Assembly: GCF_000383615.1 (NCBI RefSeq)
Contig: NZ_KB911592.1
Span: forward strand, 124,001 to 188,000
DNA from: Streptomyces canus 299MFChir4.1
GTDB taxonomy: Bacteria > Actinomycetota > Actinomycetes > Streptomycetales > Streptomycetaceae
Length of the DNA stretch: 64,000 nucleotides
Direction: 5' to 3'
Shown here: positions 14,020-58,937 of the stretch, piece after piece
How positions within the stretch are numbered: position 1 is the first letter of the stretch
Layout: each line of letters begins with the position of its first letter
The notes under the pieces: model-generated
Told to the model about the DNA's origin: nothing
What the model saw: only the letters and a program-made list of their open reading frames with translations
Database searches by the model: none
Program-made: the position numbers and the translations under genes

Positions 14020-15246
14020 GTGGACATCAGCTATCCCCCCGAGACCGAGGCGTTCCGCACCGAGGTCAGGGCGTTCCTCGCCGAGACTCTGCCGCCGGGC
14101 TGGAACGGGATCGGCGCCCTCGACGAGGAGGCGGCCTGGGCCTTCGCCCGGGACTGGCGCCGGCTGCTCGCGGAGCGCCGCTACCTCTCGCTGACCTGGC
14201 CCGAACAGTGCGACGGCCGGGGCCTGACCAAGCTCCACCAGGTGGTGCTGATGGAGGAACTCGCGCTGGCCGGTGTGCCGTTCGGGCTGCCGCAGGACAC
14301 CTTCGGCGTGAAGATGCTGGCCAACACGCTGCTGCGCTGGGGCACGGACGAGCAGAAGGCCCACTTCCTCCCTCGCATCCTCAGCGGCGAGGACACCTGG
14401 TGCCAGGGGTACTCGGAGCCGGACGCGGGCTCGGACCTCGCCTCCCTGCGGACACGCGCGGTGCGCGACGGCGAGGAACGGGTGATCGACGGCCAGAAGG
14501 TGTGGACCTCCGGCGCCCATCACAGCGACTGGATCTTCGTCCTGGCCCGCACGAACCCGGACGCCCCCAAGCACCGCGGCATCTCCTTCCTCCTCGTCCC
14601 GCTCGACCAGCCCGGCGTGGAGGTGCGGCCGTTCCGCATGATGAGCGGGCAGCTGCACTTCAACGAGGTCTTCTTCCAGGGCGCCCGCACGCGCGCGGAT
14701 CTGATCGTCGGCGGCGTCGACAACGGCTGGACGGTCGCCCAGAGCCTGCTCGGCGTGGAGCGCGGCGAGGAGGCCGCGACCAACCCGATCCTCTTCAAGG
14801 CGGAGGTGGAACGCCTCGTCGAGCTGGCCCGGCTGTACGGCAAGGACCAGGACCCGGTGATCCGGCAGCGCATCGCCTGGTGCTGGTCCAAGGTCGAGAT
14901 CATGCGCTACCTCGGCTACCGGATCCTCACCGGTTGGCTCAAGGGCGCCGAGCCGGGCCCCGAGTCGTCGATCGCCAAGCTGTACTGGAGCGAGTACCAC
15001 ACCAAGGTCACCGATCTCGCGATGGACATCATGGGCCTGCACGGCCAGGTGCCGGTCGGCCGCCCGCCCCTGCGCACCTACCGCACCGACGACCCCGGCG
15101 CCGCGAACTCCTCGGCGTCCTGGTCGACGACCTACCTCATCGCCCGCTCGGGCACCCTCTACGCGGGGACCTCCCAGGTGCAGCGGAACATCCTGGCGGA
15201 GAAGGTGCTGGGACTACCGCGGGAGCCGAGGGCGGCGGCGGGTTAG
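14020..15246 (+). CDS. Acyl-CoA dehydrogenase
   Basis: 408 aa flavoprotein of the acyl-CoA dehydrogenase family, larger FadE type seen in steroid-like pathways. Visible features: [18 protein letters not shown] substrate/FAD loop, [15 protein letters not shown], and the C-terminal [22 protein letters not shown]. The Glu usual before GTSQ is Ala. The start is the GTG at 14020 with GAGGAG about 8 bases upstream; the upstream ATG inside the operator at 13948 has no ribosome site. Single-gene unit divergent from the FabG operon. Electrons would go to ETF, whose gene begins at 63708. Confidence 0.87.
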
Positions 15247-28696: not shown

Positions 28697-29205
28697 CACG
28701 TCTCCTTCCAGAAGGCCGGCCAGGCGGGGAAGGCCTCGGGCAGCGTCGGCTCCCCGGCTCCCTCCCAGCCCTTGAAACCCACGGCCTGGGGGCGCTCGGT
28801 CACGTCCGCCGCGTACCAGTGCCGCTCGCGGCGGCGGGAGAAGTACCACTCGCCGTCCACGCGCGCGTAGTCGTCCCAGTAGCAGATCGCCATCACGATC
28901 CACCGCTCCCCCACCTCGTGCTCGGCCCGGCAGTACACCGCGCCGGTCGCCGTGTCGCGGCCGGTGAACTCGACGCGGTGGCCGCAGATCTGGTGGACCG
29001 ACCGGTGGAAGCCGCGCACCTGGGGTTCGATGTGCTGCCGCAGGACAGCCCGCCCGCGGCCGTGGCGCCCCATGTCCACGTCGGGCCGGAAGCAGCCGAC
29101 CCAGGCGTCCAGGTCGCGGCCGTCCACGGCGAGCGCGTAGCGGATGGGCAGCTGCTGGATGGCGAGCTGCGACTCGACGCGGTCGAGACGGTCCTCGACC
29201 GGCAT
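28696..29205 (-). CDS. SnoaL-like/NTF2-fold protein
   Basis: 169 aa alpha+beta barrel of the SnoaL-like (NTF2) superfamily: early helix IRYALAVDGRDLDAWVGCFRPDVDM and HQICGHRVEF, CRAEHEVG, ICYWDDYARVDGEWYFSRRR strands. Members act as small isomerases, hydratases or dehydratases on ring and ketone substrates, including steroid ketoisomerase-like ones; the pocket Asp residues (near 29 and 34) fit that pattern but do not prove activity. Coupled to both neighbours by overlapping stop/start codons. Confidence 0.72.
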   Translation of the reverse strand: MPVEDRLDRVESQLAIQQLPIRYALAVDGRDLDAWVGCFRPDVDMGRHGRGRAVLRQHIEPQVRGFHRSVHQICGHRVEFTGRDTATGAVYCRAEHEVGERWIVMAICYWDDYARVDGEWYFSRRRERHWYAADVTERPQAVGFKGWEGAGEPTLPEAFPAWPAFWKET

Positions 29206-30419
29206 CACGGGCGCGGCTCCTTAGGCAGACCCAGGACCTGCTCACCGATGATGTTGCGCTGGATCTCGCTCGACCCGCCGTAGATCGTCTCGGCGAGGGA
29301 GAGCAGGAAGGAGCGCTGGCGGCGGTCCAGGGCGTAGTCCTCGCCGACGATCTGTCCGGCCGGGCCCGCCAACTCCGTGGCCAGCTGGCCGAGTTGCTGG
29401 TGGCGGGTGGAGGCGTACAGCTTCGCGGTGGTGGCCTGTGCTCCCGGCGTGCGGCCGGCGGTCAGTTCGGCGATGGTGCGCAGGTTGGTGGTGCGCATGA
29501 TGCGTACGGAGATCCAGGCGTCGACGATACGGCGGCGCAGCATCGGATCGTCGAGCGCGCCCCGCTCCCGGGCCAGGTCGATCAGTGCCTCGGCCTCCCG
29601 CTCGAAGGTGAGCTGCTGGGGAAGGAGCGTGGTGCCGCGTTCGATGCCGAGCGTGGCCATCGCGGTGCGCCAGCCCTGACCGACCTCGCCGACGACCATG
29701 TCGGCGCTCGTGCGGGCGTCGGAGAGGAAGACCTCGGCGAACTCGTCCTGCCCGGCGAGGTTGCGGATGGGGCGGATCTCCACGCCGGGCTGGTCGGTGG
29801 GCACCAGCAGCAGGCTCAGGCCCTTGTGCCGCACGGACCGCGGGTCGGTGCGGGTGAGGACGTAGAGCCAGTCGGCGTGCACTCCGAACGAGGTCCACAC
29901 CTTCTGTCCGCTGACCACCCATTCTCCCCCACTCTCGGCTCCGCTCGAGCGGGAGGTGCCCCCATCGTCCCGCTCCGCCCGGGTGCGCACGGACGCCAGG
30001 TCGGAGCCGGCGCCCGGCTCGCTGAAGCCCTGGCCCCACAGCTCCTCGACGCCGAGGATCGGCGGCAGGAAACGCTTCTTCTGCGCCTCGCTGCCCATCT
30101 TGAGGAGCATCGGGCCGAGCAGATCGAGGGCGTTGACGGTGGCCCGGTACGGGGCGTTCACGCGGGCGTATTCGTACTCGAAGACGATCTCCTCAAGCAG
30201 CCCGAGCCCGCGTCCGCCGTACTCCCGGGGCCAGCCGACGCCCAGCCAGCCCCCGGCGGACAGTTCACGGTCCCAGGCGAGGCGGACCTCCCAGGCCGCT
30301 CCGTCGGTGGGGCCGCCCATGCCCCGGTGCTCGGCGAACTCCCCCACCAGGTGGTCCGCCAGCCAGTCCCGTACCTCGTCGCGGAAGTCGCGTACGTCGG
30401 GCCCGAAGTCCAGCTCCAT
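29205..30419 (-). CDS. Acyl-CoA dehydrogenase with in-frame repeat insertion
   Basis: 404 aa, larger FadE-type subunit. GQGFSEPGAGSDLASVRTRAE, SGQKVWTS, and the C-terminal YGGSSEIQRNIIGEQVLGLPKEP match the enzymes at 14020 and 57648. Between RTRAE and WVVSG it has about 14 extra residues (DGGTSRSSGAESGG) encoded by a palindromic repeat at 29921-29966 that homologues in this window lack. The site is the loop before the Gln-Lys-Val-Trp-Thr-Ser strand and may tolerate the addition. Paired with the smaller acyl-CoA dehydrogenase at 30440, as in heterotetrameric steroid FadEs. ATG 30419 is 20 bp after that gene. Confidence 0.87.
   Translation of the reverse strand: MELDFGPDVRDFRDEVRDWLADHLVGEFAEHRGMGGPTDGAAWEVRLAWDRELSAGGWLGVGWPREYGGRGLGLLEEIVFEYEYARVNAPYRATVNALDLLGPMLLKMGSEAQKKRFLPPILGVEELWGQGFSEPGAGSDLASVRTRAERDDGGTSRSSGAESGGEWVVSGQKVWTSFGVHADWLYVLTRTDPRSVRHKGLSLLLVPTDQPGVEIRPIRNLAGQDEFAEVFLSDARTSADMVVGEVGQGWRTAMATLGIERGTTLLPQQLTFEREAEALIDLARERGALDDPMLRRRIVDAWISVRIMRTTNLRTIAELTAGRTPGAQATTAKLYASTRHQQLGQLATELAGPAGQIVGEDYALDRRQRSFLLSLAETIYGGSSEIQRNIIGEQVLGLPKEPRP
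29921..29966. repeat. Palindromic REP-like element inside an acyl-CoA dehydrogenase gene
   Basis: CCCCCACTCTCGGCTCCGCTC then GAGCGGGAGGTGCCCCCAT-type sequence, with the perfect 12-bp palindrome CCGCTCGAGCGG at 29941-29952. From memory this strongly resembles a short dispersed element common in Streptomyces intergenic regions. Here it is in frame within coding sequence and adds about 14 residues. No second copy was seen in this window. Confidence 0.65.
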
Positions 30420-57651: not shown

Positions 57652-58895
57652 GGCCGCACCTCCTTGGCAGCGGCGGTCACCGGTTCCTTGGGCAGGCCCA
57701 GGACGCGTTCCGCGAGGATGTTCTTCATGATCTCCTCGGTGCCGCCGAGGATGCGCAACGCCGGGGTGGCGAGGAGGAGTTCGGTCCAGGCGTAGGTGCC
57801 CCACTGGCCGGTGTCGGCGATGATCCGGGGGCCGAGCACGTCGGACACGAAGTGCGCCGCCCGGGTCAGGTTCTGGCCGTACATCAGCTTCGACACGGAC
57901 ATCTCGGGGCCCGGCGCCACTCCGGCACGAAGCTTGCGCAGGGCGCGGGCGTTGAGGTGCTCGGTGGCCATGACGTCCACGAGCAGTTCGGCGAGGCGGG
58001 CGCGCAGGGCGCGGTCGTCCCACGTCCAGGTGGCCCGCATGAGCGCCGAGAGGTGGTCCGGTGACAGGGCGGCGGCCACCGGGCCCACCCCCTCGCTGCC
58101 GACGGTCGCGCGCTCGTTCATCAGGGTGGTCAGGGCGACCGTCCAGCCGCCGTCGACCTCGCCGAGCCGGTGGTCGTCGGGGATCCGGACGTCGGTGAGG
58201 AACACCTCGTTGAAGTCCGCGCCGCCGGTCATCTGCCGCAGCGGCCGGACCTCGACGCCCGGCGTGTCCATGGGGACCAGGAAGGCCGTGATACCGCGGT
58301 GCTTGGGCGCGTCCGGGTTCGTCCGGGTGAGGGCGAGGCCGATCTGGCTGTGCTGGGCGACCGAGGTCCACACCTTCTGCCCGTTCAGCACCCAGCTGTC
58401 GCCCTGGCGGACGGCCCGGGTCGCAACGCTCGCCAGGTCGGATCCGGCGCCGGGTTCGCTGAACAGCTGGCAGGCGATGGCGTCCCCGCGGTACATCGCG
58501 GGCAGCCAGCGGTCCTTGATGTGGGGCTGGGCGTGGGCCAGGATCGTCGGCCCGATCATGCCCAGGCCGATCACACTGAGCACACCGGTGTCGGCGACGT
58601 CGTACTCCGACTCGACGGCGTCGTAGAGCAGGTCGTGCACGGGGGTCAGGCCCCGGCCGCCGTACTCCACCGGTCCGGTGGTCCAGCCGAAGCCGTTCTC
58701 GTGGCGGATCCGCTGCCACTCCCGGGCCCGTTGCACGAACTCCCGCTCCTCGTCGGGCGGGAGGCTGCTGAAGTACGCCATCGAGTCGTCGCCCTCGCCC
58801 CAGGTGAAGGCGGTGCGGTCGGGGGCCTTCGCCGCGTGCGCGTCGAGGAAGCGGCGCGCCTCGGCGGCGAAGTCCTGCATGTCGTCGGATTCCAT
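57648..58895 (-). CDS. Acyl-CoA dehydrogenase, larger subunit
   Basis: 415 aa, larger FadE type: QLFSEPGAGSDLASVATRA, NGQKVWTSVAQHSQIGLAL, VRPLRQMTGGADFNEVFLT, and C-terminal GGTEEIMKNILAERVLGLPKEP. Partner of the coupled 56536 product, giving a probable alpha2beta2 enzyme like ChsE-type steroid dehydrogenases (inference from architecture). Starts 42 bp after the thiolase-like gene. Confidence 0.88.
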   Translation of the reverse strand: MESDDMQDFAAEARRFLDAHAAKAPDRTAFTWGEGDDSMAYFSSLPPDEEREFVQRAREWQRIRHENGFGWTTGPVEYGGRGLTPVHDLLYDAVESEYDVADTGVLSVIGLGMIGPTILAHAQPHIKDRWLPAMYRGDAIACQLFSEPGAGSDLASVATRAVRQGDSWVLNGQKVWTSVAQHSQIGLALTRTNPDAPKHRGITAFLVPMDTPGVEVRPLRQMTGGADFNEVFLTDVRIPDDHRLGEVDGGWTVALTTLMNERATVGSEGVGPVAAALSPDHLSALMRATWTWDDRALRARLAELLVDVMATEHLNARALRKLRAGVAPGPEMSVSKLMYGQNLTRAAHFVSDVLGPRIIADTGQWGTYAWTELLLATPALRILGGTEEIMKNILAERVLGLPKEPVTAAAKEVRP

Positions 58896-58937
58896 CGCGT
58901 TCGCTCCGCGGTCAGAAAGAGGTTCAGGTCGAGAGGA

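Follow-up and report, generated by a model that had tools for sequence, protein, structure and literature searches.

Cyanobacterial small dispersed repeats are tiny mobile repeats, elements of the IS200/IS605 type insert beside a fixed target tetranucleotide that is kept at one end, and Rickettsia palindromic elements (RPEs) were reportedly described by Ogata et al. in 2000 and 2002. According to PMC10969869, RPEs are palindromic repeats of about 150 bp that lie in frame in unrelated protein genes, and prokaryotic MITEs are small, non-autonomous dispersed elements. PMC3733652 describes GTAG- and CGTC-tagged REPs as hairpins of 20-40 bp, mostly intergenic and some intragenic, with two recB genes hit by REPs at about the same site; the word Streptomyces has no occurrence in the main text of that paper. 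Among the matches listed in a search of open-access papers, outside which most subscription journals fall, there was no description of the Streptomyces element reported here.

The window (the whole stretch of DNA analysed, 64,000 nucleotides) contains an acyl-CoA dehydrogenase (ACAD) gene that has very probably received a recent insertion of a non-autonomous REP/MITE-like hairpin of 40-41 bp, so far found in Streptomyces only. The copy, its host gene and the corresponding loops of two paralogues in the window are as follows.

29924..29964, minus strand: element copy, 41 bp, CCTCC length variant, TGGGGGCACCTCCCGCTCGAGCGGAGCCGAGAGTGGGGGAG (exact sequence match)
29205..30419, minus strand: host gene, acyl-CoA dehydrogenase (ACAD), 404 aa (open frame, protein match, Pfam PF02771, PF02770 and PF00441)
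14413..14505, plus strand: the same loop in an ACAD paralogue, empty (homologue alignment)
58368..58460, minus strand: the same loop in a second ACAD paralogue, empty (homologue alignment; the S. canus orthologue L256 is filled)

The earlier note had claimed a dispersed palindromic element at 29921-29966, and exact matching located it there, at 29924-29964 on the minus strand. The note was right that the loop has gained a segment and wrong about its size of some 14 residues, since the copy, translated in frame as GGTSRSSGAESGG, adds a net 36 bp over the empty site, that is 12 residues. As also claimed, the loop is short in both homologues in the window (at 14020 and 57648), where it reads as a stretch of 19 residues from 14413 and as ATRAVRQGDSWVLNGQKVW from 58460. 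Pfam analysis of the host protein revealed that the N, middle and C domains are all present. In its predicted structure (27-row alignment, mean pLDDT 78.3), the insert falls between two predicted strands, 147-151 and 166-175, and pLDDT drops below 50 for residues 155-163. The twelve added amino acids extend a surface loop of the ACAD, in the model by a Gly/Ser-rich stretch that is probably disordered, and the putative enzyme activity would be expected to be retained.

The 12-mer palindrome CCGCTCGAGCGG, to which the note had given weight, does not rise above control and is uninformative alone, having 2 exact places in the genome versus 14 for the reversed control and, at up to one mismatch, 2 in the window versus 1.97 expected. 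RNA folding of the window copy together with its flanking sequence scored no better than shuffled sequence (z 0.53), and Rfam covariance models hit nothing in the window when gathering scores were applied, nor the element at four other loci. Searching with the whole 41-bp element yielded nine genome places with E <2e-5, window copy included, and its core at up to two mismatches gave 10 genome matches, versus none in the reversed control. The further genome copies that the note had proposed to look for are thus clearly present, and together with core matches in other Streptomyces they bear out a dispersed palindromic element.

The element occurs in two length variants, GGGGGTCCCCCC (40 bp counted from T) and GGGGGCACCTCCC (41 bp). 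Its ends are direct repeats, TGGGGG, spaced 33 bp apart in the longer variant; the left end is mostly TGGGGG (76 copies), and the right end, TGGGGGAG, lies within the search core. In the stem, CCCCGCTC / GAGTGGGG, 5 double compensatory changes were counted across 46 distinct cores, where the null gives a mean of 0.55 and a maximum of 3; these cores represent 175 copies that were gathered at few mismatches or via flanks, so that the set leans to conserved copies. All six frames of the element are stop-free, as are ~29% of random 41-mers at 72% GC. In S. flaveus (G328), 17 of 60 copies sit inside a larger near-identical repeat, ccgcg-element-cgacc or close (L276, L288, L289, L291, L298, L311 and others), and the hairpin is therefore also a module of bigger repeats. 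Genome G271 has a second composite repeat, at seven loci (L204, L206, L210-L214), whose flanks resemble cgaaggggcgcagcccc and ggacgggtaggggcgg.

A survey with the 29-base core at up to one mismatch detected 914 copies in 133 of 295 Streptomyces genomes (reversed control 0), with a range of 1-49 and a median of 4 copies per positive genome; the reversed control of the 28-29 base core had no match in any genome survey. When a class-wide sample was searched at up to two mismatches, 19 of 394 genomes were positive, all of them Streptomyces, one genus of the 137 covered. The element is carried by 8 of 72,556 plasmid records, again all Streptomyces, and phage records gave no element match; blastn of the window gene region against plasmids matched 123 records. 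Three pairs (G201/G323, G287/G329 and G011/L121) are apparently the same genomes doubly named, and distinct copies were counted by flanks.

Presence and absence of the insert were compared at homologous ACAD loci, of which 45 were taken, 40 with a parsed loop and 5 unparsed by the loop pattern. The parsed loops were of the standard short form in 38 cases, the others being L129, with two extra residues, and L096 from S. phaeochromogenes, which is long. Flank comparison covered 38 loci, 34 taken from the search for orthologues plus 4 other ACAD loci. Of these, 37 fall short of the window gene by 36 bp, L096 again being the exception, and the aligned distant homologues are without the element, so that neither of the two outcomes named in the note as refuting its reading was obtained. 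In a tree of 22 genes, comprising selected homologous loci plus the window gene, the two inserts having been removed beforehand, the window gene falls into a clade of six together with LUP30, S. canus, S. pseudovenezuelae DSM 40212, NRRL S-981 and S. cellulosae, with clade support of 100/99 and weak internal branching order. All five partners are empty, and so are LUP47B and LBL, which are close to the window gene by identity and lie outside the 22-gene tree. Because the window gene falls among five orthologues that are empty, the event looks recent, and an insertion on the window gene's own branch would be the simplest reading of these sequences, in agreement with the note's proposal of recent in-frame transposition.

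The insert of L096 aligns to the element with a score of 50 (shuffled maximum 33), and therefore the same ACAD site has also been filled in S. phaeochromogenes, apparently by an older event outside the window clade. The loop at L096:3451-3528 is 69 bp longer at this site and is made up of a decayed copy and some additional sequence, which may represent one element nested in another. In S. canus, the orthologue of the window ACAD gene is empty, while L256, 92.7% identical to window 57654-58937, carries the element; GGPSRSSEAESGG would be the linker stretch in a filled ACAD such as that of L256.

The net length of the insertion was determined at 22 in-frame genic sites for which an empty relative was available; 21 of them gained exactly 36 bp and L011 33. 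These 22 include L009, L011, L013/L275 and L014, which were assigned by open frames and relatives and which the codon model described below called intergenic or edge, or which were absent from its set; a 33-bp net also occurs in a single relative each of L014 and of L008/L225 (the latter a scar). Among nine intergenic sites, six have a net of 36 bp (L168, L188, L217, L221, L268 and L290), two of 37 (L007 and L223) and one of 34 (L010), with L268 giving 35 and 34 in two of its four relatives and L010 giving 34 in 8 of 10 relatives and 33 and 36 once each. Left out of the intergenic nets were L199 (41-43 bp, altered left end), L173 (36, context 'edge') and, inside larger repeats, L289 (36) and L302 (35), and filled matches only, several of them self, were obtained for L072, L186, L194, L262, L320 and L335, which have no net length. 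Multiples of three are expected at genic sites because most of these were chosen by open frame; the preference for 36 over 33 or 39 extends to sites between genes and points to a property of the insertion event. The net length, equal to 12 codons, is thus largely intrinsic to the element.

The CCTCC variant has a net of 37 at both of its intergenic sites (L007 and L223) and of 36 at every compared genic site, the L242 scar aside, the pattern expected from a frame filter. A coding-adapted CCTCC subfamily was considered and dropped in view of the 37-bp net at these two intergenic sites, and a p of 0.019 for in-frame genic versus intergenic sites was withdrawn, most genic sites being frame-selected and L195 missing from the test. 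L011 was rejected as a frame-breaking insertion, since it is in frame with its net of 33 bp; its host gene, presumably FUSC-like from its motifs, is separately frameshifted upstream of the insertion when compared with three relatives, which may be a sequencing error or mark a pseudogene.

No target duplication was seen at the compared sites. The right end of the element replaces 4-5 bp of target, often GACG in genes, for example converting GGC GAC GAC to GGT-element-GGA GAC, and the target of L221, which already read GGGAG, received a clean 36-bp insertion. L013/L275, in a gene whose motifs we take to indicate a roadblock-type protein, carries diverged copies in several genomes, and element copies can therefore persist. 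At the BNR/sortilin site L242 (S. cellulosae, around 1501-1752), only TGGGGGAG is left, which makes the site 33 bp shorter than in its filled state and looks like the remains of a deletion between the terminal repeats; element loss would go by deletion between the two terminal TGGGGG repeats.

As for what moves the element, it would travel in trans as a single-stranded hairpin, perhaps via a Y1 (HUH) transposase, which is the weakest part of the proposed mechanism. A Y1_Tnp match is present in 22 of 26 genomes with at least 10 copies versus 77 of 269 others, and, among genomes of at least 9.4 Mb, in 17 of 19 with at least 10 copies versus 31 of 63, both comparisons uncorrected for relatedness. 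Four genomes (G128, G156, G168 and G258) hold 13-16 copies, yet lack a Y1_Tnp match, and among 24 Y1 loci only one shows a loose match to the element, a single one, within the 1.5-2.5 kb examined on most sides. Template switching or microhomology repair, in which a single strand ending GGGGGAG pairs with a G-rich target and is copied by fill-in, without any transposase, is possible if somewhat doubtful, and we give it and the Y1 route about equal weight. It agrees with the absence of target duplication and the 4-5 bp replaced at the right end, with the clean 36 bp gained by the GGGAG-holding target of L221 and with the 23 inspected Y1 loci that have no element nearby, whereas the near-constant net length at unrelated sites is too regular for usual repair accidents and copy number follows Y1_Tnp presence.

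As 36 bp equal 12 codons, most insertions of such length would keep the frame; selection would then retain in-frame copies located in permissive turns. To place copies relative to genes, we used a codon log-odds model trained on the window only, in which the genic class is by definition in frame (the same coding frame on both sides and no stop). It assigned 159 distinct copies, most of them taken from pattern-search places without regard to gene, to 49 genic, 84 intergenic, 24 edge and 2 two-signal cases, in agreement with the resemblance to a Streptomyces intergenic repeat suggested by the earlier note, copies being mostly between genes and some genic. The whole S. flaveus genome, searched at up to two mismatches, gave 11 genic, 39 intergenic, 9 edge and 1 two-signal case among its 60 copies. 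Of the two-signal copies, L339 has coding signal on opposite strands and L195 (G148) two frames on one strand; translation of the latter around 1584-1612 shows a gene, which we take from its motifs to encode a polyphosphate kinase of the PPK2 kind, broken at the element, and frame-breaking insertions therefore do occur.

The 49 genic copies are read in frame A (28), D (14), B (3), C (2) or E (2), to which a hand-found frame F copy at L011 is added, and frame A accounts for 20 of 20 copies of the CCTCC variant and 8 of 28 of the TCCCCCC variant. Hosts named by Pfam include pyruvate dehydrogenase E1, transaldolase, GlnE, the complex I 30-kDa subunit, FdhD, a PNKP ligase, a solute-binding protein, an MFS transporter and a BNR/sortilin protein, and L219 was the sole one among ten tested hosts with no Pfam match. 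Upstream of the element-bearing solute-binding protein gene, L183:876-994 has a sub-threshold TPP riboswitch match (46.9 bits, gathering 54.3). In-frame capture, which the note had treated as a rarity, proves to be no rare accident for the Streptomyces hairpin element.

Since the loop that it occupies is also filled in sister enzymes of relatives, the element has the look of selfish DNA tolerable to many proteins. That such DNA was itself selected to be harmless in genes, through the 36-bp net of the commoner variant, six open frames and a linker-like frame A peptide, is an unlikely further step, proposed because a nearly all-coding genome leaves few other landing places. Retention of the insert because it benefits the enzyme, for instance by serving as a linker for regulation or interaction, appears distinctly improbable: the genic bias to the hydrophilic frame A (28/49), complete in the CCTCC variant, could be taken in its favour, as could the decayed copy still at the same site in S. 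phaeochromogenes, but tolerance accounts equally well for the frame bias, 37 of the 38 related loci do without the insert, and the low predicted loop confidence is that of a disordered loop.

ACADs make up 9 of the 49 genic copies, all nine confirmed by Pfam, and all nine copies lie in the loop preceding the motif [NSD]-G-x-K-x-[WFY]. The nine filled ACADs form seven groups with at most 65% identity between groups, one of which (L191, L271 and L309; 85-89%) is filled in three genomes. With 42 ACAD middle-domain matches in the genome, 36 of them above cut-off, the chance of this excess is p ~6e-12 (9/49) or 2e-9 (7 of ~40 sites), values that rest on an assumed 9.2 Mb of coding sequence and an assumed site number. 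The ACAD beta-hairpin turn, with codons like GGC GAC GAC (Gly-Asp-Asp), would combine a matching target with a tolerant loop, and we infer that it is hit repeatedly because of this combination.

A filled loop spread by gene conversion among ACAD paralogues, after few insertions, would likewise place the element in the same loop of seven ACAD groups, but we consider it very improbable, because the filled genes share at most 65% identity between groups, align outside the element to their own empty relatives and carry different element variants (GGTSRSS and GGPSRSS), and because unrelated genes are hit likewise. A simple length change of a variable loop, by an ordinary indel or tandem slippage, for which one could cite the differences of a few residues in loop length among distant ACAD homologues, is refuted, its likelihood practically nil, by the match of the 41 bp to dispersed copies elsewhere in the genome.

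Insertion of a mobile hairpin, the reading preferred here, brings to a large free-living genus a shorter version of the in-frame palindromic protein insertions best known from Rickettsia. Its Streptomyces hosts include core metabolic enzymes, and filled, empty, decayed and apparently part-deleted states are found across relatives. Dozens of natural gene pairs with and without the linker offer a direct test of mobile DNA adding peptides, and the element also offers a route to the machinery moving such hairpins.

Compared with elements of the IS200/IS605 type, the genic targets of the Streptomyces element are often GACG yet are not kept, and its left flanks vary. Cyanobacterial small dispersed repeats are also tiny and mobile, and are set apart by their host and probably by their sequence. 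Like the MITEs of PMC10969869, the element is small, dispersed and non-autonomous; unlike them, it shows no target duplication at the sites compared, and its ends are direct (TGGGGG) rather than inverted repeats. With the REPs of PMC3733652 it shares a short hairpin with a covarying stem and up to 49 core copies per genome, but its consensus has no GTAG or CGTC tag at either end, and, unlike GTAG-class REPs with a RAYT, no Y1 gene flanked by copies was found among the 24 Y1_Tnp loci, the Y1 family being the one considered. It resembles RPEs, as described in PMC10969869, in lying in frame in unrelated protein genes (L195, where it breaks the frame, aside), and differs from them in being 40-41 bp long with a near-constant 36-bp net instead of ~150 bp, a comparison made by length, and in its free-living, GC-rich actinomycete hosts. 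The Streptomyces element acts like Rickettsia palindromic elements and intragenic REPs, without their defining tags.
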